Positions 19,102 through 40,517 of a stretch of 64,000 bases of DNA are shown here, piece after piece. The first letter of the stretch is position 1. Each line of letters opens with the position of its first letter. Both the position numbers and the translations under genes were made by a program. The notes under the pieces were generated by a model, which did no database searches, was not told where the DNA came from, and saw nothing but the letters and a program-made list of their open reading frames with translations. Source of the DNA: a virus; IMG/VR virus record IMGVR_UViG_3300049483_000112, positions 1-64,000 of that record. One strand, given 5' to 3'.

Positions 19102-20619
19102 TTAGCCGTTGGCGATGTTGCGGATCACCGCCAGGGCGAACGTGGCATACACCTGCAGCACGCCGTCTTGGTAGACGCCGTACTCGTATTTGCGGGTGCG
19201 CAGCGGCCATTCGATCTGGTAGTAGTCCCGGCGCATCCGCATCTGCATCACGTTCGTGACGTTGCTCAGCGGGTAGGGCAGTCGCTGCGTGGTGAACAGG
19301 ATCGTGCCAGGCGGCATGTTCGGATGTAGGCGCACCCTCAACTCTTGCGCGCTGTCCATCGAGAACTTGTTCAGGTACGACTTCACCATGATGCCGCCGC
19401 CGACCATGCCCTGATCAGCATTGAAGACGAAGCGCTGTGCCGCGGACTGGCCACCCTGCAAGATCTTCGCGCCGATGCTGTTCATCTCCTGGCTCGAAAC
19501 CCACATCGTGTCGGGGCTCAGCCGGTAGTTGTCCCACATCGACTTCAGCACTGCATCGATCTGCACGACGCCGCCGGAGCCGTCAGCCGTCAGCGCGGTG
19601 CCGGTGCCCGCCGTGCCGTTGGCCATCGTCACCTGCGTTGCGCCCAGGCTTGACTGCATCGCCATCGTCAGGATGCCGTCGAACGCCAGCGAGTTCCGCG
19701 ACTTTTCGGCCGCAGTGAGCGCATTGAAGTTCGATTGCCCAGGCGACACCGTCGTCCCGGCAGCCGCGTCGGTGATCAACACCGAGTTGATGGTTGTGAT
19801 AGCGCCCAGCGTCAGGTTGCCGGCCGCCGCACCCCAGAACCACGCGTATGCGACCGCACCGTCCACCGCCGCCACCGTGGCAGAGATGACCGACGTGTTG
19901 GAGCTCGCGGCAGTCGTCACGTTGGCTTGCGGGCTCGGGTACGCGCTGCCGCCGTTGATGGTGTCGGTCGACGAGTCGGCGTTCGTGCGCACGTAGGATT
20001 GCACGATGCCGCCGGTCAGCGACGCCAGCATGTACCCTTCGAACGTGAGAGCGACGCAGCCGACACCGTAGGACGCGTTGCCAGTCAGGGTCCCGCCGGC
20101 ATTGGCAGACGACAGGGTCGGCGTTGGCGTGTTGGCCAGCGCGTACTGCGTGTTGCCGCCGAGGATGACCTTCTCTTCGTTGATCATCATCGCGCGCAGC
20201 AGCCCCTCGACGGCCAGCGCCTTGACATCCTCGAAACCTTCGCCGGCGTAGTCGGCCTCGAAGGTCACGTTGTCTTCAAGGCCCATGCCCTTGTAGGCAG
20301 CCGTGTAGTCTTGGGTCGAGGTCGTGATCACCGCGCCACGATTGCCTTGGCTCACGAAGCCGTTGACTTTCGTGGTGTTCACGCCGGTGACGGCGCGCCA
20401 GTTCGCCTGGATGCCACCCTTGCCGCTGACACGAGGGATCTCGTTGCGCAGCGGCGTGATGACCGGGTAGAGCTTCTTGGACGGGGCCTCGAGGTCGTAG
20501 GCGGTGATGCCGCTGACCGCTGAGCCGCTTTGCGTCCACGACTTTGCCAGTTCCGAGTCCGGCATGCCCTGCGCCGCCTTGACGAGCGCGAGGGTTTCCG
20601 CAGTGGTTTGTGCGTTCAT
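19102..20619 (-). CDS. Major capsid protein
   Basis: 505 residues, larger than a bare HK97-fold subunit. The first 200 and last 180 residues look like an HK97-type capsid protein of the group that follows an XkdF protease (KKLYPVITPLRNEIPRVSG near the start; RVRLHPNMPPGTILF and LSNVTNVMQMRMRRDYYQIE near the end). Between about 205 and 300 there is a Ser/Thr/Ala-rich beta segment containing ATVAAVDGAVAYAWFWGA, like an Ig/FNIII insertion. It follows the protease/scaffold gene and precedes a terminator. Confidence 0.88.
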   Translation of the reverse strand: MNAQTTAETLALVKAAQGMPDSELAKSWTQSGSAVSGITAYDLEAPSKKLYPVITPLRNEIPRVSGKGGIQANWRAVTGVNTTKVNGFVSQGNRGAVITTSTQDYTAAYKGMGLEDNVTFEADYAGEGFEDVKALAVEGLLRAMMINEEKVILGGNTQYALANTPTPTLSSANAGGTLTGNASYGVGCVALTFEGYMLASLTGGIVQSYVRTNADSSTDTINGGSAYPSPQANVTTAASSNTSVISATVAAVDGAVAYAWFWGAAAGNLTLGAITTINSVLITDAAAGTTVSPGQSNFNALTAAEKSRNSLAFDGILTMAMQSSLGATQVTMANGTAGTGTALTADGSGGVVQIDAVLKSMWDNYRLSPDTMWVSSQEMNSIGAKILQGGQSAAQRFVFNADQGMVGGGIMVKSYLNKFSMDSAQELRVRLHPNMPPGTILFTTQRLPYPLSNVTNVMQMRMRRDYYQIEWPLRTRKYEYGVYQDGVLQVYATFALAVIRNIANG

Positions 20620-20656: not shown

Positions 20657-21784
20657 TCACTTGCGGAGCGGCTGAGTTACTGTCAGCGGCGCACCGCCAT
20701 ATCGGTGGAGGTTCTTGATGAGCCCTGCGGCCTCGTGCGGATCACCACGGTCGTCGATGATCGGCTCGGCTTTGTTGAGTTTCGACGCTTCGGTGTCACC
20801 ACCACCCAAATCGTCGGCCTTTGAAATTGCGCGGAGCATCACGCGCGGCGTCGCCGGCTGTGCTTCGAGTTTGATGATCTTCGCTGTCGCGTCCTCGAGC
20901 GCCTTTTGCAATGGCGCGAGCGCGTCGGCGACGATCTTCTGAAGGGCGGCCTCGTCGAGCTTGGCAACCGGAGCGTCGACCTTTTCGACCTTCTCGGCTT
21001 TCTTGGCCTCATCGGCGCACTCGTCGCCATCTGGCTCGGCCTCTTTGTCCTCTTCATCGGCAGCCTTGGCATCAGCGGCAGCCTTGGCATCTTCAGCCGC
21101 TTTTGCGTCCTTCTTGGACGGCGGCCACGCCTTGATCATCTCGATCACTGCGCCGATGTTCAGGCCGGCGTCGTTCATCGTCTTGCCCAACAGGGCGACC
21201 TCGTCTGCCGTGCCCTCGACCGTCACATCGTCGGGGTCCACATCCTCGACCTTCTCTGCATCAGCCTCGGGCTGATTCTTGAAGTCGACCTTCTCGACAG
21301 CGCCGTCGGCCTTTTGCACTTCGAAGAACTTCGCGCTCGGGATGCACGGCCGATCGACCAGCGAGATCTCGGTTGGCTTCGCCGTGTAGCGCGTCACGTC
21401 TTTGCCATCGGACTTCTCGACAGTCTTCGGGCCGACGTACGACCCGCCGATGGAAAAGCCGGTGTAGCAGCCCTCGTTGACCTTCTTCCACTCCTGATCG
21501 TCCACGATCTTGGCGACCACATCGATCGCCTTGTCGGCGTCATTGAAGTCGATCTGCGTCAGTTTGCCGGCGGACACCTTGCCGTGCATGGCGCGCACAT
21601 TGCCCATGCTCTTGCCGCCGGTGTCCTTCGCGATCTCTGCCGACCAGGCCTCGAAGTGTGGCTTGCTCGACAGATAGTCCATCACCTCGTCCGACTTGTC
21701 GACCATCTCTTGCGCCGCCCGACCGAAGACGAGCCGCTTCTCTTCATCGACCTTGGTGATCTGCGCGAAGATGTTCATCGACAT
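20657..21784 (-). CDS. Prohead protease fused to scaffold, XkdF-like
   Basis: 375 residues. The N-terminal 155 residues match the XkdF / S78-type head protease pattern (NEGCYTGFSIGGSY and KPTEISLVDRPCIPSAKF). The C-terminal half is an acidic Lys/Ala/Glu/Asp coiled coil ending in a short basic stretch, as in scaffolds. One polypeptide would thus template prohead assembly and then process head proteins. AGGAG precedes the ATG by 7 bases. Position before the capsid gene supports the call. Confidence 0.85.
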   Translation of the reverse strand: MSMNIFAQITKVDEEKRLVFGRAAQEMVDKSDEVMDYLSSKPHFEAWSAEIAKDTGGKSMGNVRAMHGKVSAGKLTQIDFNDADKAIDVVAKIVDDQEWKKVNEGCYTGFSIGGSYVGPKTVEKSDGKDVTRYTAKPTEISLVDRPCIPSAKFFEVQKADGAVEKVDFKNQPEADAEKVEDVDPDDVTVEGTADEVALLGKTMNDAGLNIGAVIEMIKAWPPSKKDAKAAEDAKAAADAKAADEEDKEAEPDGDECADEAKKAEKVEKVDAPVAKLDEAALQKIVADALAPLQKALEDATAKIIKLEAQPATPRVMLRAISKADDLGGGDTEASKLNKAEPIIDDRGDPHEAAGLIKNLHRYGGAPLTVTQPLRK

Positions 21785-21860: not shown

Positions 21861-24800
21861 CTACAGGCGCAGCGCCAGGCGCCGCTTCAGGCTCGTCTCG
21901 CGCCGCTTTTTCTTCTTCTTGCCCGTGTTGCCGTAAGCCGTGAGCCCGCTGGTCGCGCTTGCCGATTGCACGAATTCCTTGCGCAGCCCGACGCCGCCTG
22001 TGAGCTCAGCGACGGTGCGGCTGACGATCGCTGCCACCTCGTCTGGCGTCAACTCCCCTGCTTCGCCGACTTGTTGATCCCCTTTACCAAGCCTTGTGCG
22101 GCCTGGCGCATGAACGCTTCCATTGAGCCCCCGCCCGTCCACGGAAGCATTTTTCGCTGGGGCGTCCCCTTTGAATCCGCGGTAGATGGAGTCGGAGATT
22201 TTTCCTGCTTCGTGCTGCTGTTCGAGTGCGTCATAGAGCTTCCTTTCCATGTCCTGTTGCGATGTGATAGTCCACTTGTCGAGCGACGCTTCTTTCGCGT
22301 TCCCGCGCCCGAGGCTATTGTCGACTGCGCGGACCCAGACGTTGCCCGAGCCGTTGTACTTTGCATAGAGCGCGCGCACGGTTGGCAGTGCGCCGGCGTG
22401 CGTCTTGGCGTGCTCTGTGATCGGGACCGTGCGCCCAGTGCCGAACTCTCTTTCCTGCCCTGCCGCCCGCGGCAGCGCCCCGTTCACGAGGGCGTCGACA
22501 GGATCTCGGTGGACATAGAGGATGCCGACCTGGCGGCCCGAGTCCAGCGCCTGCATCACCTTCTTCTCTGCGCTGCCGAGCGTGTTCATGTTGGTGTCGT
22601 AGATGATGTTGGCCCTGGACACCATGTCAGCAAACTCGGGCAACTTCATGCCGGACGACTTACCCGCGCCGGTGCCGCCAGCGGTGAAGAGCACGACCGG
22701 GTGCATGCCGCCGGGCACCGGCTCAGCCAGCATGCGCGCGTACAACTCCTTGATGAATAGGCTGGCCGGCTCATGGACGGCAGCGCTTTGCGTGCGGTCG
22801 GCGAGATAGTCTGGCGACAACTCGCGCGCGATGTCGGTGTTCAGCACTCGTCCGCCGAGCCCTGGCGAGTCCTTCTCGGCGAGCGCGTGGTACTCGGCAA
22901 TCGCCGCCGTGAACGCCTTCTCGTTCGTCACCTTGAACTCGTGCTCCCCCTTGCTGTTGGTGCCGGTCATCGTCATTCCGAGCTTCTGCGCCAACGCAAA
23001 CTCGATGGCCGACTGCTTGGCCGTGAGCGTAGATTGCCCTTCAGCCCTGGCAACCACAGCGGCGCGCGTGCCTTCAGAAGCGCTGGCGCCACCGCCGGCG
23101 TCCGTCCACATGCCATGTGCGTCGCGCGGCTGATCAGGATCGAACCCCTTCAACAGCGCGGACAGATTCGTTTTCATGACGCCTCCCTTGTCATCGATGC
23201 CGAGGCGCATGCGAATCACCGAGCCGAGCATGCGCAATGACTCGACCTCGTCGTTCGTCGGCTCGCGCGGCGGGCCAATATCGAAGCCGAGCAGTTCGTT
23301 GATGTTGATGAACTTTCCGACCTTGCCTTCCACCCAATCTGCGAAGCGTCGCGCGCCGTCGCTCGAACTCTTTGGCGTCGACTTCGCGCCAAGGTGCGTG
23401 TACAGGTTCTGCTCGTGAAACCACAGGCCCGCCTGAACTTGTGACGCCTTCAGGCCGGTCCTCGATGCCACCTCGTTGATCAGCGCCTTTGATGCGCGCC
23501 GCATAGGAGCGGTCGGGCCGCTGATGGCGACCATCTTCCCGTTCTTGTCCTTCACCGAGGCCTGCTTGAAGTACCTCGCGAACGTGCGCGTCATCCACTT
23601 GTCGACAACCGGGTCTTCAATCCCGTGCATGTTGCTGATGAAGGGCCCGATCTTTGGCCCGAAGATGCTCAGCCCGAGTTGTTTCTGGTTCTGCGTCTTC
23701 AAGACGAGCTTGCCCTTGCTGCCGAGCAAATCCTTTTCTGCTTCGTGCAACTCTTTGTTCGTGTGATCGGAGTAAAGCCAGGCCACCGCGCCCGCCTCGC
23801 CGAATCTCTCGACAAGCGTGTTCAGCGCGCCCATCCCCTTGGCGACGTATTCGCCGCGGATGGTCCACAGGCCAACCTTGCCAGTAAAGCCTGGCTCTCC
23901 TTGCGGGTTGTACGGTGGCAGCCGCCCAGTGCGTTCGTACTCTCGAAATATCTTCGCGCCCGTGTTCCAACTGATCATCGGGTCGGTCCCGTTCGCCGTG
24001 ATGCCGGCCACGACACCGAACAACTGTTGCTTCACCGGTTCCGACAGCGACGGGATGTATTTTTGCGTGATCTCCATCGCGGTCTTGATGTCGTCGGTGT
24101 ACCAACGCTTGAAGTCGCCCTTGCCAGTTACCTCTTCGCGCAGCAATTGGTACTTGATCTCCTCTGTGGCGGTCTGCACTGCATGCTCGAAATTCTTGGC
24201 GACTTGTTCCTTCACCTGAAGCGGATCTTTGGGGCTCGCCTCATACGCGACCGGCCCGCCTTCGCTGAACATGGCAGCGATCTGGTCAACAGACATGCGC
24301 TTGCCCTCGTGCGCCGCGCTGTTGCGAATGTTGATCGCGCTGAACTTGCCGGCCATGCCGCTCGGACCGCCCTCATCTGTCCATCGGCCGAGCTCGTCCC
24401 GCTGCTGATCCTCGCGAAACTTTTCGAGCTTCTCGGCGCGCGCACGCCGCAGCCGTGGTGTGCACGCTAGCGCTCCGAAGTCGTCGGCCTCTTCGTCGAT
24501 CTTGCCCAGGCCGGCGCGCACCTTGCGGTAGTCCTTCTCCATGATGGTCAACTCGTTTCTCATCGTCTTGCGCTGCGTCGGATCAGGCACGTAGCCGTGG
24601 CGTCGATAGAACTCCTCGGCCTTGGGCATCGCAGACAGAAAGACACCCACGCCCTTTGAGGCGGCCACTTGCTCGACCTCTTTCAACAGGCGCGACCCTT
24701 CGCCTTCTTTCAGCGAAAAGAGGTAGTCAACCTCGATGTCGTGTTCGCGCCCAGGCTGCGCTGGCGTGTACTGCACGCCGCTGACGATCCGTCCGTTCTC

Positions 24801-26474
24801 GACGACGAGCTTGTGCTGCGTACCTGCGTCGATGTCCTTTTGCCTATACAGCAGGATCGATTCCATCAGCCAGTAGGCCGCCTTCTCTTTCGGTGACGCG
24901 CCGCGCTCAAGCGCCTCTGCCTGCTGCGCAGAGTACATGTCAATCAGCACATTGCGGTTGCGCGATGTGACCGGCGTGTCGCCACTCGGTAGCGGCTCGC
25001 CATGATGTTCAGTTGAGCCGAGCAGCGTCTCGACAATCGCGTTGCCGCCTTCGTTTGTCCAGCGCCCATGATCATCGCGGGGCTGTGCGTCGTCGTACTT
25101 CGCGACCTGGCCGACCCATAGGTCGTCAGCGATCAACCCCGCCTTGACGGCGTGACGGTACACGGGCAGCGTCTTGAAGTGTGCAAGGTTGCGCACCAGA
25201 CGCATGAACTCTGGCGACTTGTATGGCGGCAGATCCCACGCGGTCTTTGTCCAGTCTGCATCCGCCTGGTCGGCATCAACGTCGATCGTTTGGTCTGTCT
25301 TGCTGAGCGCCTTGCCCATGGCCTCGTCTCTCAACTTGACCTCTGCCTGCGCGTACACGGGCCACGGCCTGTCCCATCGGCCGCCAACCGCGTTTGGCGA
25401 CAGCATGATCGCGTCAGTCTTTCCGCCAAGCACGACGAACTCGGACTCGCTCAGGCACCCGAACCCTGTCCTCGGTGTCGACAGGATTCTCGATGCGGGC
25501 ATCTTCACCAAAAGCACGTTCCCGTAGCCGCCTGCAAAGTCTGCCGCCATGTCCGCGTGCGCCGAAAACGACGACATCGGGTTCATGGTCACTTTGTAGT
25601 AGCCAGGCGGCGCTGGGGATCCTCTTGTTGCAACGATCCCGCGCATCAGCGTCACCTCTTTGAGCCCGGCTTTCGCAAGATCTGCCTGCGTCTGGCTGTA
25701 CATCTCGCGCAGGAATGCGCGCGTGCCGGCAATTGCGATCTCCGGTGACGCCGTGATGCGCATGTGATCCATCGCCTCTTGAGCCAGCCCGGTTGGGGAT
25801 ATGGGCAACTCTGGGTTCGCCACAGCCGCCGTGTCGCGCACACCCCGCAGGCCGAACTCCTGCTTCACCATCTCTTGCAGGAAAAGCGACCGCGGGTCGT
25901 GATCTGCCGATGTCACAGCCCATGACGACACAAATTGTCGAATGGCATCCTCGCTACGGAGGTGCAGTTGCTGCTGATCCGCCGGCCCAAGAAACAGGCC
26001 CGGCGCAGACTGCATCGGCATTGCAGCCATCAGCGCGCGCCAGTCTGCGTTCTTGACGAGCTCGTCCTTCAGTCGCAACTGAGATAGCTCTTTTGCTTCT
26101 TCGCCCGTCCTGACTCCAGGCCAAGCCGTATAGGCCTCTGCGTCGGCCATGCTCTGCTCTACAGGACTCCACCCGCCCAGTGCCTCGCTCGGCTTGAAGT
26201 CGCTTTGCTCGAATCGAATCGATGCTGCATGCGGCGTGCCGGCGGCCGGATCCGCAGCGCCAGTCATCTGCTCATCTGACCATCGACCGCGCTCGTCGCG
26301 CGCTTGGTTCGGGTCGTACTTGAGCAGTGCGCCGAGATCGATCTTGCCCGTGTAGCCCGAGGCGTAGATCGCCGTCGCCTGCCGCTCAGCCTGCGCGCGC
26401 GTCGGGTAGCACTTCTGATTGCCCCATTGCCAGCCTTGCTCGCCGTTGGGGAGGGTGCAACGTTGGATCGGCAT
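21861..26474 (-). CDS. Giant polyvalent head protein: ADP-ribosyltransferase, GNAT, unknown, zeta-like kinase
   Basis: 1,537 residues. A short N-terminal module (MPIQRCTLPNGEQGW, residues 1-45) is followed by four units, each opened by a tag of the form (F/Y)-D/E-x-x-Q-x-RD-x-x-G-x-W-(S/T): near residues 53, 460, 686 and 1111. Unit 1 ends in an ADP-ribosyltransferase with R278 (LMRG), SSFSAH at 301-306 and the ExE pair E343/E345 in LSESEF. Unit 2 holds a GNAT fold (EGEGSRLLKEVEQVAASKG then EEFYRRHGYVPD, 589-631). Unit 3 (705-1098) is a helical domain I cannot name, with FGPKIGPFISNMHG. Unit 4 has a Walker A GGTGAGKSS at 1266-1274 and DTNMNTLG after it, like zeta-toxin kinases. The C-terminus is a Lys/Arg tail. 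It lies between the MuF gene and the protease, so it is probably packaged and injected. Confidence 0.85.
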   Translation of the reverse strand: MPIQRCTLPNGEQGWQWGNQKCYPTRAQAERQATAIYASGYTGKIDLGALLKYDPNQARDERGRWSDEQMTGAADPAAGTPHAASIRFEQSDFKPSEALGGWSPVEQSMADAEAYTAWPGVRTGEEAKELSQLRLKDELVKNADWRALMAAMPMQSAPGLFLGPADQQQLHLRSEDAIRQFVSSWAVTSADHDPRSLFLQEMVKQEFGLRGVRDTAAVANPELPISPTGLAQEAMDHMRITASPEIAIAGTRAFLREMYSQTQADLAKAGLKEVTLMRGIVATRGSPAPPGYYKVTMNPMSSFSAHADMAADFAGGYGNVLLVKMPASRILSTPRTGFGCLSESEFVVLGGKTDAIMLSPNAVGGRWDRPWPVYAQAEVKLRDEAMGKALSKTDQTIDVDADQADADWTKTAWDLPPYKSPEFMRLVRNLAHFKTLPVYRHAVKAGLIADDLWVGQVAKYDDAQPRDDHGRWTNEGGNAIVETLLGSTEHHGEPLPSGDTPVTSRNRNVLIDMYSAQQAEALERGASPKEKAAYWLMESILLYRQKDIDAGTQHKLVVENGRIVSGVQYTPAQPGREHDIEVDYLFSLKEGEGSRLLKEVEQVAASKGVGVFLSAMPKAEEFYRRHGYVPDPTQRKTMRNELTIMEKDYRKVRAGLGKIDEEADDFGALACTPRLRRARAEKLEKFREDQQRDELGRWTDEGGPSGMAGKFSAINIRNSAAHEGKRMSVDQIAAMFSEGGPVAYEASPKDPLQVKEQVAKNFEHAVQTATEEIKYQLLREEVTGKGDFKRWYTDDIKTAMEITQKYIPSLSEPVKQQLFGVVAGITANGTDPMISWNTGAKIFREYERTGRLPPYNPQGEPGFTGKVGLWTIRGEYVAKGMGALNTLVERFGEAGAVAWLYSDHTNKELHEAEKDLLGSKGKLVLKTQNQKQLGLSIFGPKIGPFISNMHGIEDPVVDKWMTRTFARYFKQASVKDKNGKMVAISGPTAPMRRASKALINEVASRTGLKASQVQAGLWFHEQNLYTHLGAKSTPKSSSDGARRFADWVEGKVGKFININELLGFDIGPPREPTNDEVESLRMLGSVIRMRLGIDDKGGVMKTNLSALLKGFDPDQPRDAHGMWTDAGGGASASEGTRAAVVARAEGQSTLTAKQSAIEFALAQKLGMTMTGTNSKGEHEFKVTNEKAFTAAIAEYHALAEKDSPGLGGRVLNTDIARELSPDYLADRTQSAAVHEPASLFIKELYARMLAEPVPGGMHPVVLFTAGGTGAGKSSGMKLPEFADMVSRANIIYDTNMNTLGSAEKKVMQALDSGRQVGILYVHRDPVDALVNGALPRAAGQEREFGTGRTVPITEHAKTHAGALPTVRALYAKYNGSGNVWVRAVDNSLGRGNAKEASLDKWTITSQQDMERKLYDALEQQHEAGKISDSIYRGFKGDAPAKNASVDGRGLNGSVHAPGRTRLGKGDQQVGEAGELTPDEVAAIVSRTVAELTGGVGLRKEFVQSASATSGLTAYGNTGKKKKKRRETSLKRRLALRL

Positions 26475-26477
26475 CGG

Positions 26478-28253
26478 TCACTCCTCGGTGTCCGCATTGT
26501 CCGCGCCCCAGTCCTCCTTGCGGAGCACCGGCAAAACGTCGCAGTTGTGCGCAATAATGCCGCTAGCGCAATACCACCCGTCAACAGTCTGGAAGTTGTA
26601 GACATGACCCTCAAAAAATCTCCGCCCAATGCTGACCACCTTGTCGCTGAATATCGCAGCGGGAAGAGTCTTTTGCAGATCATCCGTCAAACCGGCTGGC
26701 CTAGAAACCGCACCTACATGCTTGCGCGCACCTTGGGCATCATTGATCCGCAAAGAAGGATTGAACGGTGCCGAAGTCCTGAAGTGCGAGCTTTGCATAG
26801 CGAACAAACGAGCGGATGGTGGCGTAACGCAATCCCAAGCCAGCGCGCGGCGCAGGTCAAGGCTGCGCATGCAGCCCCCAACAAGCGCGCCAAGGATTGG
26901 TGGCAAGGAAAGAACGCCACACAGCGCGTCAAGCACCTTGCCAAGACGTGGGCGGGGTTTGCGCATGAGCGTGAGTTCGTGCGCTTTTGCTCCGATGCCG
27001 GAGTGTTGGTGAAGCGGTGCTTCCGCATTGGAAAGTACAGGCCTGATTTTCGCATTGATGACACACGCCTTCTTGTCGAGGTCTGCGGTAACTATGCCCC
27101 CGGCGATAGATACAGAACCGTCCGCCGCGAGCGCATTGAATATCTCCTCCGCTCTGGATGGTCGATCCTGTTTGTCCTTATAAGGCCAGGGGATCGCGTC
27201 GGCCTCGCTGCTGCTGATCACACTATCACCTTGATGGAGTCGATCCGCGGCGACGAACCCGTTGTCGGTCAGTATTGGGTGATCAGGGGTAACGGTGAGT
27301 TCGTTTCCGCTGGCGGTCCTGATGACGACGACTTCCCCTTCGTATAGGCTCCTTGTCGCTGCTCGCACCTCTGGCCCCCAGACAATAGTGCTAGGCGCCA
27401 GACAAAGACAGTTCGGGTGCGCTGGCGGGAAGTCGATCCCCGTGTCGCCGAAGTCGTCCTCAAGGTCCACAACGCCAGCCTCTGCGGCGTCGTCGCACTC
27501 ATCAGGCTCTGGATGCGTGTCGGCAAGGATCCATCGCTTGCCCTCGACCTCGCCTGTTGCGCGCCAACCCTCGACGTTGCCCTGCACGTGCGCGAACGCG
27601 AGCTCTGTGCGCGCGATCATGTCAGCGCGCGCGGGCCCGAATGCGCCCAACTCTTCGATTGCGCTCGACAGGTCATCGGCGCTCATGCCTTCTTCGACGG
27701 CGCGACTCAACAGGCCACGCACCGCCTCGTCTGTCGTGTCGGCGTAGTCCTTCATGAGCTCGCCGCCGCGGTTGGCCGCGTAGAAGACGGCCTCGGCGTC
27801 GACTTGATGCACCATCGCTTCAGTAGCGGCGAAGCCTACTTGCTCGAGCCCGGCGCGGCCGGCCGTCTGATATGCGTCGAGGATCTCGGGGCGCAGGATG
27901 CGAATGATCTCCTCGGCCAGGTCGTCGTAGTTGGCGCGAAGGATCTTCATCACTGCGGCGACGACATCATCGTCACTTGCCTTGGCGAGCTTTTGCGCGC
28001 GCGATCCGTAGGCGGCCGCAGCCTTCGCCGCGATGGCCACGCGGTGCCGACGCAGCGCCTTGCCGATCCGGCTCGCCACCCTGCCTTCCCGGCGCGCGAC
28101 GAATCTGCCCACAGCGGTTGTGTGCGGCCGCAGGCGCCCCTTGGCGAGTTGATAGGCCGACTCCTCCTCTGCCTTCGCCAATTCGAGCGCGCGCGCGATG
28201 CCAGGCATGCTGCAGCCGCATGGTGTCCTGACGAAGACAGACCGATTCCCCAC
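26478..28253 (-). CDS. MuF-like minor head protein interrupted by an intein
   Basis: Continuous frame of about 590 residues. The extein is an SPP1 gp7/Mu F-type head morphogenesis protein: a helical N-terminal half, RADMIARTELAFAHVQGN, KRWILADT-P-DEC and the conserved HPNC motif. Residues 290-576 (counted from the TTG at 28271) are an intein; joining the exteins gives PPAHPNCL-CDVLPVL, the expected family end. The start is uncertain: GTG at 28253 has AAAGGA 9 bases upstream; TTG 28271 and ATG 28208 are alternatives. The extein product sits inside the head near the portal and aids DNA packaging or ejection. Confidence 0.88.
   Translation of the reverse strand: MGNRSVFVRTPCGCSMPGIARALELAKAEEESAYQLAKGRLRPHTTAVGRFVARREGRVASRIGKALRRHRVAIAAKAAAAYGSRAQKLAKASDDDVVAAVMKILRANYDDLAEEIIRILRPEILDAYQTAGRAGLEQVGFAATEAMVHQVDAEAVFYAANRGGELMKDYADTTDEAVRGLLSRAVEEGMSADDLSSAIEELGAFGPARADMIARTELAFAHVQGNVEGWRATGEVEGKRWILADTHPEPDECDDAAEAGVVDLEDDFGDTGIDFPPAHPNCLCLAPSTIVWGPEVRAATRSLYEGEVVVIRTASGNELTVTPDHPILTDNGFVAADRLHQGDSVISSSEADAIPWPYKDKQDRPSRAEEIFNALAADGSVSIAGGIVTADLDKKACVINAKIRPVLSNAEAPLHQHSGIGAKAHELTLMRKPRPRLGKVLDALCGVLSLPPILGALVGGCMRSLDLRRALAWDCVTPPSARLFAMQSSHFRTSAPFNPSLRINDAQGARKHVGAVSRPAGLTDDLQKTLPAAIFSDKVVSIGRRFFEGHVYNFQTVDGWYCASGIIAHNCDVLPVLRKEDWGADNADTEE
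26544..27404 (-). other. Intein (287 residues) in the minor head protein
   Basis: The N-terminal splice block starts at Cys (CLAPSTIVWGP); block B is GNELTVTPDHPILTDNGF with the TxxH motif; block F is FEGHVYNFQTVDGWYCASG; it ends GIIAHN followed by Cys of the C-extein. All catalytic residues of a class 1 intein (Cys1, TxxH, His-Asn, Cys+1) are present, so it should be active. No endonuclease motif is visible in its own sense translation between blocks B and F; that interval is instead antisense to the gene at 26604-27347. Confidence 0.9.
26604..27347 (+). CDS. Vsr-fold homing endonuclease encoded antisense inside the intein
   Basis: 247 residues from the ATG at 26604 (GGAAG about 9 bases upstream, weak). 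Residues 10-47 look like a resolvase-type HTH (AEYRSGKSLLQIIRQTGWPR). Two copies of a Trp-Trp repeat follow (GWWRNAIPSQRAAQVKAA; DWWQGKNATQRVKHLAKTW), similar in style to DNA-binding repeats of homing enzymes. Residues 140-195 hold a Vsr/PD-(D/E)xK core: KYRPDF, LLVEVCGNY, RRERIEYLLRSGW, then a strand SILFVLI. The gene lies wholly within the intein and its codons are exact reverse complements of the intein codons. It contains no TTA, CTA or TCA codon, as required for the intein frame to stay open. It should cut intein-less alleles to drive homing. Confidence 0.82.
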   Translation: MTLKKSPPNADHLVAEYRSGKSLLQIIRQTGWPRNRTYMLARTLGIIDPQRRIERCRSPEVRALHSEQTSGWWRNAIPSQRAAQVKAAHAAPNKRAKDWWQGKNATQRVKHLAKTWAGFAHEREFVRFCSDAGVLVKRCFRIGKYRPDFRIDDTRLLVEVCGNYAPGDRYRTVRRERIEYLLRSGWSILFVLIRPGDRVGLAAADHTITLMESIRGDEPVVGQYWVIRGNGEFVSAGGPDDDDFPFV

Positions 28254-28254
28254 C

Positions 28255-28400
28255 GTGCAACATCCTTTCAAAACAAGAGAGCACTTTTGGCAGAAAATTT
28301 CACCACTTCAAACCGCAGCATTTATGCGCCAGGCGGCGATAGTGACCACTACCGAAAGGTGCAATTTCCTTTCAAAACGAAAGAGCGTTTTTGAAATTTC
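28255..28400 (-). repeat. Duplicated ~42-base segment upstream of the minor head gene
   Basis: Copies at 28255-28300 and 28359-28400 share, on the minus strand, GAAATTT, CTCT, GTTTTGAAAGGA and TTGCAC in the same order. The downstream copy contains the probable ribosome site of the minor head gene. The region between the repeat protein stop and this gene has no other coding content, so it is a leader or promoter duplication. The upstream copy also carries a 6-bp inverted repeat AAAACG/CGTTTT. Confidence 0.55.
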
Positions 28401-28403
28401 CTG

Positions 28404-31400
28404 TCACGCGTACATCGCCACCATCTCGATGAAGTCCGCCAGGTCAGGATCGTATAGGGTTGTGTTGGCCGCAGGCGCCAGCCCGAGCGCCGTCATCGAC
28501 CCCGTAGGCACGCTGATGACGATCGGCTGCTGCCGCACTGGCGGCCTGATCGGCAGCCTGACGCGGTGCGCAATCAGCCGAGGGACGATCTGCTCTTCCG
28601 CTGGGCGAATGTCGCTGACGATGATGCTCGGGGCGAACCCGGCGAATGCACCATGGCCAGTTTCAACGCCGATCGGAACGTCGACAGGCTTGGGCCGATA
28701 GGTGCGATCGACGATGAAGTCTGGGCGTCGGTTGCCGCGGCCCCAGCCCACGCCGTCCAGGGTTGGCGGCAATGCCGGCGCAGGCGCTTCTGCAACTTCT
28801 TCTTCGCCAGGGACCAGCCCAACAATCGTCATCGACCCCGTGGGCACCTCGATGACGTGATGCTCGGTGCGCGCGACCGTCGGCGCAAAGCCCGTGAACT
28901 GCCCGGTGCCGGTGCCAGGCGTCGCGGTGATGAACTCGCTGATCAGGATCGACGGCGCTAGGCCTGCGAATGCGCCCGTGCCGGTGTCCGGTTTCACCCC
29001 CTGCCCGAGCAGCACCGATGGAGGAAGACCGACGAACGCACCAGACCCAGTCGCAACGCCGGCGATGACGTGCTCGGTACGCGAGATCGTCGGCTCGAGG
29101 CCCGTGAATACGCCAGACCCGAACCCAGGCTGCGCCGTCTTGCCTAGCGCACTGTTGAGCACCCCAGGGGCGAACCCGCCGAATGCGCCGGCCCCAGTCG
29201 GTACCGCAATAATCTGGCCGATCAGGATAGACGGGGCGAGCCCAATGAATGCGCCCGTGCCCGCGGGCGGAGTGGCCGAGATCAGGTCGCTGACCAGCGC
29301 CGTCGGCGCCAAGCCGCTGAACGCGCCAGTGCCAACCGGGACCGGCAAGTTGGTGTTCGTCGCACTGCTGACCGAGATCGTTGGCGCCAGGCCTTCGAAC
29401 GCGCCGCTGCCTACGCCAGGCGCTGCGCTGCGCAGATCCGAAACCGCAATCGATGGAACAAGCCCGGTGAACGCCCCGGTGCCAAGGCCCGGCCGCGCCA
29501 ACAGGCCGACAGTGATGATCGGGGCGAACCCAACGAAGGCACCCGAGCCGGCGCCAGGCTGCGCGATGACATTGAGCAGGGTGCTTGGGGCAATCCCAAC
29601 GAATGCCCCGCTGCCGGTGGCTGGCTGATAAGTTGACCCGCGCAGAGCAATCGGCAGCAGCCCGGTGAACGCCCCCGCCCCGACGCCTGGCGTCGCCACC
29701 ACCCCAGTGAGCAGCGTTGGCGCAAGCCCCGCCGCGGTCAACGAACCAACCCCTGGCCGGAATACATAGCCGGTGATCGCAGCGGGCGCAAAGCCCGACG
29801 CAGACAGCGTGCCGGGCCCAGGCTGCGCGATCTTGAGGTCGCTGATGGTTGCGGTAGGGGCAAGCCCTGCAAACGCTCCTGTGCCCGTTCCTGGCTGCGC
29901 GAATGCGCCAACTACGAACGTCGGCGCTAGGCCAGCGAATGCGCCGCTGCCGGCCGGCGGCTGCGCGATCGCGTTTGTCAGGATCGAAGGCGCAAGTCCG
30001 GCGAATGCGCCGGTCCCAGCCCCCGGCTGAGCGACAGTCCCGCGCAGGATGGCCGGCGCGAGTCCAGCGAATAGGCCGGTCCCGGCGCCAGGCTGCGCAA
30101 CAGTGCCAACGACCAGAGTCGGAGTAAGACCGGCGAACACCCCTGTGCCGGCACCGGGCTGGATGATCGAGTTGATCAGCAGCGACGGGGCGAACCCTGC
30201 GAACACGCCAGCGCCGGCAGGCACGGCATAGATCGCACTCGTCAGCAGCGTCGGTGCCAGCCCTGCGAACACTCCGTTGCCTGTGCCGGGCTGCACGTAG
30301 GACTGGATCAGGAGCGACGGCGCGAGCCCGACGAAAGCCCCGTTGCCTGTGCCGGGCTGCTTGATCTCTCCGCGCAGCGCCGTCGGAGCAAGGCCTGCGA
30401 AAACGCCCGTGCCAGCGCCGGGCTGCGCATACATCTGCACGAACAGCGCTGGCGCAAGCCCGGCAAATACCCCTGTCCCTGCGCCAGGCTGCGTGATCGT
30501 CCCGGCGACAACCGTCGGCGCTGCGCCAGCGAATACCCCGTTGCCCGTGCCGGGCTGTGTGATGGTGCCGCGGAGCGCTACCGGTGTTGAGCCAGCGAAT
30601 ACCCCGTTGCCGGTGCCGGGCTGCGCGACTGTTCCGATGATCAGCGTGGGCGCCAACCCAGCGAACACGCCATTGCCAAGACCGGGCTGCTCTACCTCGC
30701 CGCGCACCAATGTCGGCGCAAGGCCCGCGAACACACCGTTACCGGCTCCCGGCTGTTCGACCTCACCCCTTACCAAAGTCGGCGCGAGCCCCGCGAATAC
30801 GCCATTGCCCGTACCGGGTTGATCGACTTCGCCGCGCACAAGCGTCGGCGCGATACCGCTGAATACGCCATTGCCGGTGCCAGGCTGCTCGACCTCGCCG
30901 CGCAGCAGCGTCGGAGCGAGCCCAGCGAAGACGCCGTTGCCCGTGCCTGGCTGTTCGACCTCACCACGAAGCAGCGTCGGTGCGAAGCCGCCGAAGACGC
31001 CGTTGCCGGCGCCAGGCTGAGTGATGGTGCCGCGCAGCACCGTTGGGGCAAGGCCAGCAAACACGCCATTGCCTGTTCCCGGTTGCTCGTACATCTGCTG
31101 GAATGCGATCGGCGCCAGTCCAGTGAATGCGCCGGTGCCGTAGCTCGGGCTTGCTGTGACGTTTGCAGTGACGCCAGCCACCGGGATGGCGAACTGCGTC
31201 CACGAGACAAACCAGCCCGTCGACTTCGTCGCCGTCGGAGCGAGCCCGGTTGCGACCGCCGACCCAACTGGTACCGCAATCGTCTTGTCTTGCGCGAACG
31301 AAACCCACATCTCGCAGCCGTCGCGGCTGCCGCTGAATGTCGGGTTGTAAATCTGCGTCGCAGTTGCGCTCACCACCTTGCGCTGGGTGATGATCTGCAT

Positions 31401-31970
31401 GCCGGAGGTGGTCACGCCAACGCCGGCCTTCAGCCCCGCTGACCATGAGCCGTTGGACGTGTCCGAGTCGTCGGTCGCGGTGTCGTTGCCCTCCCGGCCC
31501 ATCGCGCCGATCACCATCGTCCCGTTTGTTAGGGACGAGGTTGTGATCGACGGGACGTTCGATGTGGCCGTTTCTTGCGCGCCAGTGACGTAGACGACCG
31601 AGTAGCCGGCCTCTGGCGTTACTTCATGCAGCGCCCACGCCTTCGCGACTGCGTTGGCGCTGATCGTCATGGTGATCGTGTTCGCCGTCGTCAGCGTGCC
31701 GACCGCCATGTTGCAGGTGAACGCGCGCATCGCCGCGCCGGCGTTCGCTGCGCCAGGGTCGATCAACGAGTTGACGCGCGAAACCCAGGTGTTCCCTACC
31801 GAGTCAGTGATCGACGAGTAGGGGTCGGCCCCGTTCGTGCCGCTGTTGTCGTATGCGCAGAACAGAACAGCCAGCGAGCCTGCGCTGAAGTTGGACCCAG
31901 GCGTGACGACGAGCGTCGTGCTCGACGAGTTGTGTGTGCCTGAACCTCGATCTGCGCCGCTGATTGCCAC
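28404..31970 (-). CDS. Giant GLAPT-repeat virion protein
   Basis: 1,188 residues from a GTG at 31970 (GGAG 6 bases upstream). Residues 1-230 form a beta-sandwich-like domain related in style to the protein encoded just upstream (32005-33030). From about residue 236 to the end there are some 38 copies of a repeat, most of exactly 22 residues, with consensus QPGTGNGVFAGLAPTLLRG. Variation is greatest toward the C-terminus, where longer proline-rich linkers appear. The regular Gly/Ala/Pro turn pattern suggests a fibrous beta-solenoid-like shaft. It is placed between head genes and probable receptor-binding proteins, so a head or tail fibre is likely. A three-repeat relative lies at 5338-5730. 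Confidence 0.8.
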   Translation of the reverse strand: MAISGADRGSGTHNSSSTTLVVTPGSNFSAGSLAVLFCAYDNSGTNGADPYSSITDSVGNTWVSRVNSLIDPGAANAGAAMRAFTCNMAVGTLTTANTITMTISANAVAKAWALHEVTPEAGYSVVYVTGAQETATSNVPSITTSSLTNGTMVIGAMGREGNDTATDDSDTSNGSWSAGLKAGVGVTTSGMQIITQRKVVSATATQIYNPTFSGSRDGCEMWVSFAQDKTIAVPVGSAVATGLAPTATKSTGWFVSWTQFAIPVAGVTANVTASPSYGTGAFTGLAPIAFQQMYEQPGTGNGVFAGLAPTVLRGTITQPGAGNGVFGGFAPTLLRGEVEQPGTGNGVFAGLAPTLLRGEVEQPGTGNGVFSGIAPTLVRGEVDQPGTGNGVFAGLAPTLVRGEVEQPGAGNGVFAGLAPTLVRGEVEQPGLGNGVFAGLAPTLIIGTVAQPGTGNGVFAGSTPVALRGTITQPGTGNGVFAGAAPTVVAGTITQPGAGTGVFAGLAPALFVQMYAQPGAGTGVFAGLAPTALRGEIKQPGTGNGAFVGLAPSLLIQSYVQPGTGNGVFAGLAPTLLTSAIYAVPAGAGVFAGFAPSLLINSIIQPGAGTGVFAGLTPTLVVGTVAQPGAGTGLFAGLAPAILRGTVAQPGAGTGAFAGLAPSILTNAIAQPPAGSGAFAGLAPTFVVGAFAQPGTGTGAFAGLAPTATISDLKIAQPGPGTLSASGFAPAAITGYVFRPGVGSLTAAGLAPTLLTGVVATPGVGAGAFTGLLPIALRGSTYQPATGSGAFVGIAPSTLLNVIAQPGAGSGAFVGFAPIITVGLLARPGLGTGAFTGLVPSIAVSDLRSAAPGVGSGAFEGLAPTISVSSATNTNLPVPVGTGAFSGLAPTALVSDLISATPPAGTGAFIGLAPSILIGQIIAVPTGAGAFGGFAPGVLNSALGKTAQPGFGSGVFTGLEPTISRTEHVIAGVATGSGAFVGLPPSVLLGQGVKPDTGTGAFAGLAPSILISEFITATPGTGTGQFTGFAPTVARTEHHVIEVPTGSMTIVGLVPGEEEVAEAPAPALPPTLDGVGWGRGNRRPDFIVDRTYRPKPVDVPIGVETGHGAFAGFAPSIIVSDIRPAEEQIVPRLIAHRVRLPIRPPVRQQPIVISVPTGSMTALGLAPAANTTLYDPDLADFIEMVAMYA
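28860..31095. repeat. 66-bp tandem coding repeats
   Basis: DNA of the repeat protein: units of mostly 66 bases, about 34 copies, many sharing runs such as CCGTTGCC and GGCTG at the same phase. The middle copies (30,300-31,050) are the most alike, the outer ones the most diverged, as expected for expansion and contraction from the centre. Confidence 0.8.
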
Positions 31971-35372: not shown

Positions 35373-35891
35373 CTAGCGCTTGAAGCACGTGCACGACGCG
35401 CAGTGAGCGCGCTCAGTGAGCCTTGCTCCGTGCGGATGGGCCTTGGCCCATAGCTCAAGATTCTCTGGCCGGTTGTCGCTCTTGATGCCGTTCTTGTGGT
35501 GCACATGCTCGTCTGCCTCAAGATACCTGCCGATCATCTTCTCCATCACAAGGCGGTGCTGCAGGACGTAGCGCCGCTTCGTGCCTTCGATGCTAGGGTG
35601 GCCGTGGGCTATTTCAAGCACGTATCCTCGTCGCATGGTCGTTCCGCCCTTCCAGCGGCTTGACTTCTCCATTGCGGCCCGGCCTGGATCGACCGCATGG
35701 CTCGCCTTTGCTGCGCACGCGTGTCCGCAAAAGATTGCGCGCTGCGTCTTCCCTCTGTACGGAGGCAGATATTCCTCTTTGCACCATTCGCACACAGCAA
35801 CGTAGACGCGCGTCCTGCATTGCCTTGCCCCGTACGTGTACCACCATTGTCCGGATTCGTCCTTCGAAAACTGATCGCTCGTTGGCTTCAT
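35373..35891 (-). CDS. HNH homing endonuclease, free-standing
   Basis: 172 residues. An N-terminal zinc finger (CEWCKEEY with FCGHAC) precedes an HNH core HRLVMEKMIGRYLEADEHVHH-KNGIKSDNRPENLEL. Such genes sit between phage genes and spread by cutting relatives that lack them. It interrupts the spacing between the lyase-like gene and a small structural gene. Confidence 0.85.
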   Translation of the reverse strand: MKPTSDQFSKDESGQWWYTYGARQCRTRVYVAVCEWCKEEYLPPYRGKTQRAIFCGHACAAKASHAVDPGRAAMEKSSRWKGGTTMRRGYVLEIAHGHPSIEGTKRRYVLQHRLVMEKMIGRYLEADEHVHHKNGIKSDNRPENLELWAKAHPHGARLTERAHCASCTCFKR

Positions 35892-40160: not shown

Positions 40161-40517
40161 TCAGACTTTCGACGTGAACTTGAACCCACGCTTCTTAGCT
40201 TCTGCCTCAACGTGCAGCCGTTCGCTATGGTAGAAGATGCCGGACTTGCCGTTTAGCGCATCAAGTACGTCTTTGTTCGACCATCGCGGCAGGCCCTGAA
40301 GATGTCGTGGCAGGCTTTCATTGAAGGGCACGTCACGCCTTTTGACATGCTGCACCCATGCGTCTGTGCCTACTTCGGGCTCGGCGCCACCGCCAGATGT
40401 CCACCGCCCGCGCTCATCGCGGGGTTGGTCCTCACTGTATTTTTCGAACATCCCCGACGGGGTGACGGCCAACGGCTTACCGTATGCAGCCTTGATCAGG
40501 TCTGTGACTTCGGACAT
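40161..40517 (-). CDS. 118-residue protein with QPRD tag
   Basis: Starts at ATG 40517 (AAGGGGG upstream). Residues 24-42 carry the same tag as the four units of the giant head protein: KYSEDQPRDERGRWTSGG. The following 75 residues, with FNESLPRHLQGLPRWSNKDV, match no family I know. By analogy it is a separate head cargo protein. Lies between TerL and portal. Confidence 0.7.
   Translation of the reverse strand: MSEVTDLIKAAYGKPLAVTPSGMFEKYSEDQPRDERGRWTSGGGAEPEVGTDAWVQHVKRRDVPFNESLPRHLQGLPRWSNKDVLDALNGKSGIFYHSERLHVEAEAKKRGFKFTSKV

Follow-up and report, generated by a model that had tools for sequence, protein, structure and literature searches.

This work concerns a 1,537-residue protein encoded by a single open reading frame (ORF) in the virus record IMGVR_UViG_3300049483_000112 of IMG/VR. 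The record has 67,463 bases, and we analyzed its first 64,000 nucleotides (the window). The ORF, which we call P0001, occupies positions 21861-26474 on the minus strand. It starts with ATG, has a GAGGAG stretch ahead of the start, and adjoins the stop of an upstream MuF-like ORF, and the gene order is MuF-like protein, P0001, prohead protease and major capsid protein. The original prediction for this locus, made without database searches, described a protein of this length encoded beside a prohead protease, and this was right: the ORF is real, and the neighbor at 20657-21784 matches head maturation protease PHROGs (3.6e-11). Absent from that prediction were four copies of a linker peptide and a C-terminal tag. 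The parts of P0001, and the part of the capsid protein that its tag resembles, are as follows.

21861..26474, minus strand: P0001, multi-unit protein, 1,537 amino acids (aa), single ORF
26337..26474, minus strand: N-terminal module, aa 1-46, phrog_31267-like
26277..26321, minus strand: linker 1, aa 52-66
25365..25934, minus strand: unit 1 core, aa 181-370, predicted R-S-E ADP-ribosyltransferase (ART), with R278/S302/E345
25044..25100, minus strand: linker 2, aa 459-477
24546..24860, minus strand: unit 2 core, aa 539-643, GNAT-like, weak
24366..24422, minus strand: linker 3, aa 685-703
23190..24359, minus strand: unit 3, aa 706-1095, DUF7178-family domain
23091..23150, minus strand: linker 4, aa 1109-1128
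22056..23048, minus strand: unit 4, aa 1143-1473, predicted zeta-toxin-type kinase, with Walker A at aa 1266
21933..21980, minus strand: capsid-arm-like tag, aa 1499-1514, profile score 42.0 against a reversed maximum of 18.8
21864..21932, minus strand: basic C-terminal tail, aa 1515-1537, 11 of 23 residues lysine or arginine
20497..20544, minus strand: N-terminal arm of the capsid protein, capsid aa 26-41, the look-alike of the tag

The final 39 residues of P0001 are KEFVQSASATSGLTAY and then GNTGKKKKKRRETSLKRRLALRL, while capsid residues 26-41 are KSWTQSGSAVSGITAY. We collected 80 capsid loci out of 307 relatives found and built a profile from 78 extracted capsid arms (51 distinct), leaving out the P0001 tail; the profile includes at least two arms (from L086 and L120) whose extraction was out of register. 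The profile was run over six frames of all of the loci that we held then, with the maximum for reversed sequences, 18.8, as the line. The tail of P0001 scored 42.0, and the next best site in P0001 scored 3.0. A second copy of the arm lies above the line in 10 of 81 loci (the 80 plus the window), which are the window, L025, L067, L070, L072, L074, L076, L015, L103, and L105. Two more loci have a like layout but fall under the line: L077 (18.6) and L265 (18.3), which was found later by pattern. All ten tags are followed by basic sequence, with 7 to 10 lysines or arginines among the next 20 (or fewer) residues.

The tag is found on different kinds of proteins. In three loci (the window, L025, and L072) it ends a long cargo ORF, and in the latter two the last unit before the tag differs from the window's zeta unit. 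It begins an 807-residue ORF with InPase and ART units in L105 and a 522-residue ORF in L265. In L015, L067, L070, L074, and L076, it is on short ORFs immediately upstream of the protease (the start of the one in L076 is our choice), and in L103 the tagged ORF is cut by the end of the contig. At the DNA level, the window's tag and its capsid arm are identical at 27 of 48 positions and use the same codon for 5 of the 10 shared residues, so the tag is not a recent copy of the arm. We searched for solved relatives of the capsid protein in order to place the arm and found no credible one.

The arm and the tag might both be recognition or cleavage sites of the prohead protease: the N-terminus of the capsid protein would be trimmed and the basic tail would be cut off the cargo, in the way that gp21 of T4 processes its core proteins. 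We hold this as a tentative possibility. The arm begins at residue 26, with a short N-terminal piece ahead of it, and the available text of PMC7411985 states that every prohead protease studied so far removes a propeptide from the N-terminus of the capsid protein and that the propeptides of T4 Alt and internal proteins are cut too. On the other hand, this protease has no known cleavage site, and when we scanned the protease itself for an arm-like stretch, we found none (best score -6.5). Also, known prohead protease sites are shorter than the tag.

We think it most likely that the tag would be a head-targeting element that either imitates the arm or is a recognition site for the protease and scaffold that both proteins share. 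This reading draws on analogy with three known systems. In T4, Alt (an ART) and the internal proteins reach the head via short propeptides that the prohead protease removes (PMC7411985, as excerpted). Alt is an R-S-E ADP-ribosyltransferase, as unit 1 of P0001 is predicted to be, and these proteins have a short terminal element tied to the prohead, as P0001 would. In T4 this element stands at the N-terminus and spans about 10-20 aa, whereas the tag of the P0001 type is arm-like, has a basic tail, and is mostly C-terminal (it is N-terminal in L105 and L265). In P1, the large internal head proteins DarB, DdrB, and DarA are targeted to the capsid, and it is the N-terminal residues of DarB that direct it there, again unlike P0001 (PMC9024508, as excerpted). 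Finally, encapsulins are described in abstracts as HK97-fold shells whose cargo enzymes are loaded by a targeting peptide that binds the shell interior. The likeness is a terminal peptide, which in P0001 would be a targeting one, although encapsulins are not phage virions. The encapsulin cargo peptides are not known to copy the arm of the shell protein.

The linker has a consensus of roughly K[Y/F]xxxQxRDxxGRWTxxGG, and its four copies lie between the units of P0001. The pattern [KRG][YF]xxxQxRDxxG[RKM]W matches P0001 at aa 52, 459, 685, and 1110 and does not match the reversed protein. A stricter DNA pattern matched 63 stretches in viral contigs and 29 stretches in a set of 84,980 genomes of bacteria and archaea. 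Judged from titles, 24 of these 29 are in Alphaproteobacteria; Nitrospirillum and Rhodopseudomonas are among the genera whose genomes bear the linker. After removal of near duplicates, there were 65 ORFs with linkers, of which 46 had a single copy and 19 had two to seven, spaced by 74 to 660 aa, which is largely domain sized. Loci that were not picked for the linker contain it as well: with a looser pattern, there were 9 copies in 7 of 78 capsid loci and 3 copies in 1 of 79 unit-3 loci (L182), and none in the reversed controls of either set. (L182 is the same contig as L072, which gives two of the nine copies in capsid loci.) DarB, DdrB, and DarA of P1 are not known to have a linker repeat.

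The linker joins a variety of domains in other phages. We found a portal-linker-zeta protein (L060), a linker-bearing protein with zeta and MuF (L008), and linker proteins with topoisomerase IB (L021), with InPase, DUF7178, and zeta together (L025), with a 2H phosphoesterase (L065), with ART-PolyVal (L072), with MuF (L059, and L018 below the cutoff), or with a prohead protease match below the cutoff (L042). The InPase unit of the relatives matches a DarB-like PHROG. Among 49 shorter linker ORFs, Pfam identified 9 Phage_portal, 2 Portal_Mu, 7 MuF, 1 zeta, 3 ADPrib_exo_Tox, 2 ART, 1 ART-PolyVal, and 1 CdiA-type RNase domains, besides others, and the three, two, and one members of the ART families are not known to be distinct. 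As a control, we took 49 size-matched ORFs without linkers from the same loci, which may include wrong-frame ORFs; these had 5 Phage_portal, 2 Phage_portal_2, and 1 Portal_Mu, and no MuF, ART, or zeta. Given these counts, portal is not clearly enriched in the linker ORFs, while MuF and effectors are. We considered whether the linker was due to chance or was a trait of any ORF in a head cluster, and we rejected this, as the control lacks MuF, ART, and zeta. Among linker ORFs in the 29 genome stretches, the 28 that we scanned (25 loci) had only single-member matches to PHROGs, including portal and minor head proteins. Going by these matches, the linker is common to unrelated putative effectors and connects them with one another as well as with portal, MuF, protease, and capsid proteins.

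What might the linker do? It may be a protease site, in which case P0001 would be cut into separate enzymes within the prohead. Linkers do stand between unrelated units at largely domain-sized spacings, and they connect portal or MuF domains with effectors. Also, in L045:4270-8712 (minus strand), one ORF of 1,481 residues has two linkers, which are followed by matches to a head maturation protease (1.1e-21) and to a major head protein (4.8e-16). But stable fusions would fit the linker-bearing ORFs equally well, and the ORF in L045 may start internally. Cleavage at the linkers is possible, but we doubt that P0001 is a polyprotein. A further elaboration is that the tag pulls the polyprotein into the prohead, the adjacent protease cuts the linkers, and four separate enzymes leave with the DNA, with this plug-in grammar being shared by many environmental phages. 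This scenario seems unlikely to us.

Instead of being cut, the linkers might be passive, recombination-friendly spacers that mark the points where domains are swapped. Their ends are glycine rich, and they stand before very different domains. However, 49 otherwise unrelated ORFs share Q, P, R, D, G, R, and W with little or no variation, which is more than a spacer needs (these ORFs were themselves selected by the linker pattern), and the linkers in loci that were not chosen for them retain this form, under the looser pattern. We view the spacer explanation as possible but short of probable. Separately, by eye, L008, L021, and L065 have a second type of linker, roughly [QH]PRVPAGSPxGG[QE][WF], at the place of the main linker. 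And a short stretch resembling (N/D/S)L(A/S/G)xLLK is found ahead of several linkers and tags (aa 44-52 of P0001, L067, L072, L105, and L265), which may be one more shared element.

Turning to the units, unit 4 matches Zeta_toxin in Pfam at 1.9e-8 (34.4 bits, above the cutoff of 22.3), and a profile of four sequences matches the Zeta_1 toxin chains in PDB (6eph/6epi) with E = 2.2e-15 over 248 positions. The Walker A motif GGTGAGKS begins at aa 1266, and GGTGAGK is invariant in all four sequences, of which L002 and L003 are identical across most of the aligned part. By these matches, unit 4 is a predicted zeta-type kinase, as had been proposed from its clean Walker A motif. In P0001 the kinase is fused to other units, which distinguishes it from the Zeta_1 toxin. 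We did not notice an epsilon-type antitoxin, and no search was aimed at one.

For unit 1, the only Pfam match was to DRAT (0.0031, below the cutoff). Nevertheless, the columns of R278, S302, and E345 are invariant in nine of nine aligned sequences, while the first Glu of ExE is missing in at least one relative. Relatives of unit 1 are found in at least 8 other contigs, and some of these proteins have three copies. The predicted structure has a mean pLDDT of 67, with block means of 72-96 across model residues 151-290. The best Foldseek match was ExoS (E = 0.078), and ExoT was at 1.1. The VIA rows were overwhelmingly entries with the ART fold, at Z of 4.4 to 6.3, which is middling by the tool's own note, but the entries listed are consistent among themselves and fit the catalytic triad. 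With both the conserved Arg, S-x-S, and E-x-E residues and the predicted fold, unit 1 is a predicted R-S-E ADP-ribosyltransferase, and the original prediction of this activity from the same residues holds up. That prediction had also proposed modeling the structure of each unit. The model for unit 3 had a pLDDT of 49.5, and its fold search was not used. As a side observation, two very similar contigs, L037 and L048, each have an ORF with the unit-1 ART in triplicate, and the next ORF of L048 has three further copies.

Unit 2 matches the GNAT family of Pfam below the cutoff (E = 0.0039, 17.9 bits against 20.7), as do two more GNAT models, and it matches an acetyltransferase in PDB at 0.011. Because the family profile is below its cutoff, we call unit 2 GNAT-like only; it is probably a GNAT domain, but the identification is weak. 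Unit 3 has 179 relatives in viral contigs (80 were kept), often within ORFs of over 1,000 residues. Of 31 members, 17 match the DUF7178 model at E up to 1, and the window's copy matches at only 0.11; we place unit 3 in the DUF7178 family. Its pattern GPKIGxFxxN...VDxWxxR resembles the HhH-GPD motif, but we rejected the reading of unit 3 as a DNA glycosylase: HhH-GPD is not among the 24 Pfam families listed for the 31 members at E up to 1. Searching PDB with unit 3 gave no convincing relative. Thus, of the three types of enzyme that were originally thought to be joined in P0001, the ART and the kinase stand and the GNAT is weak, and about 390 aa of unit 3 had gone unnamed.

With several effector-type units in one polypeptide, P0001 appears to be of a known kind. 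A 2017 survey (PMC5512222), in the portion available, describes the polyvalent proteins of phages and conjugative elements as multi-enzyme head proteins, has ART and GNAT side by side, and includes InPase and a zeta-like kinase among the units. P0001 and its relatives resemble these in having several enzyme domains per polypeptide (at least two effector-type domains in P0001, namely the putative ART, DUF7178, and zeta units, with GNAT being weak), in being encoded with virion genes (MuF, protease, and capsid), in having ART by GNAT, and in having a zeta-like kinase or InPase. The survey also states, in that portion, that R-S-E ARTs of the Alt/VIP2 type are not in genuine polyvalent proteins, so P0001 would place such an ART in a multi-domain head-region protein where the survey had not seen it.

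We think it probable, on balance, that P0001 is a polyvalent effector protein that is recruited to the prohead by its C-terminal arm-like tag and enters the host with the DNA. Four units (the R-S-E ADP-ribosyltransferase, the GNAT-like unit, DUF7178, and the zeta-type kinase) are strung on a repeated linker peptide. The C-terminus, which is a 16-residue near copy of the arm plus a basic tail, would recruit the protein into the prohead, with the tag either docking where the arm docks or being recognized by the arm's partner (scaffold or protease). After packaging, P0001 would be ejected with the DNA, and its enzymes would take over host functions by modifying host proteins, while the zeta unit would phosphorylate nucleotide sugars or a similar target. 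The tag, the basic tail, and the linkers that are shared with portal and MuF fusions are a better reason to consider P0001 as head cargo than its gene position alone, which was the argument of the original prediction.

Several observations count against this proposal. Of 16 loci whose capsid identity is at least 0.70 (including the window), nine do not have a tag above the line, and of these nine, L080 has only 1.3 kb upstream and L077 scores 18.6. The tag occurs on short ORFs (e.g., L067 and L074) with no large cargo gene seen in the stretch listed. In the cultured Brevundimonas phage Polewnik, the capsid protein and the arm are present, but there is no second copy and no linker within the 29.4 kb examined. 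Given Polewnik and the tag-free close loci, the tag is an accessory element that is outside of basic head assembly. Very few isolated phages bear the linker (1 record at E of 10). As for the units, the ART model has a mean pLDDT of just 67 and Z of at most 6.3, and the GNAT unit has no relative outside the window among the loci fetched by then.

Another view is that P0001 is a polymorphic toxin, carried by a prophage, that acts against other bacteria or benefits the lysogen rather than acting early in infection. MuF-based toxin delivery systems are named in the available part of PMC5512222. But the tag and the gene order link P0001 to head assembly, and we noticed no immunity gene beside it (none was searched for). 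We consider this very unlikely.

If P0001 is instead a head-borne effector protein, then its tag suggests a way to load host-modifying enzymes into the phage head. To our knowledge, how most polyvalent proteins enter phage heads is an open question, and an arm-like tag that shifts between the ends of different cargo makes it directly testable. With the linker as a search sequence, head-borne effectors could be located in metagenomes and their domains delimited. Both elements appear to be undescribed. We found no description of either in open-licence literature (titles and the starts of abstracts), which is slight support for their novelty; neither "GRW" nor "linker" appears in the main text of PMC5512222, and the portion of it available mentions no capsid-arm tag.

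The genes around P0001, and another gene in the window with a linker, are as follows.

26478..28271, minus strand: MuF-like head protein that contains an intein; matches Phage_Mu_F of Pfam at 3.1e-7, above cutoff
20657..21784, minus strand: prohead protease with C-terminal extension; PHROG match, XkdF/S78_2-like, Pfam below cutoff
19102..20619, minus strand: major capsid protein; annotated relatives are major capsid or head proteins
40161..40517, minus strand: 118-aa protein encoded between terminase and portal; has a fifth linker close to its N-terminus

The capsid protein has 505 aa; Arthrobacter phage Sonali and Alicyclobacillus phage MMB025 encode relatives of it that carry the annotation major capsid or major head protein. 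A megablast comparison of 21.7 kb of the window to phages gave no match. The module at aa 1-46 of P0001 recurs in a MuF protein (L087) and in an InPase/unit-3 protein (L072), in both of them close to the N-terminus. The intein in the MuF-like gene matches Intein_splicing in Pfam at 1.1e-7, just below the cutoff. Antisense over this gene is a 347-aa ORF (26304-27347, plus strand) with a match below cutoff to PF18741, which is restriction-endonuclease-like (E = 0.019); perhaps it is an antisense homing nuclease. Farther upstream, at 28404-31970 on the minus strand, is a 1,188-aa protein with many near-identical repeats of the form QPGTGNGVFAGLAPT and no Pfam match at 0.05. Finally, an HNH endonuclease is encoded at 35373-35891 on the minus strand (PHROG 2.8e-27, HNH_3 6.3e-12), and it shares its strand with the surrounding head and polysaccharide-lyase-like genes.
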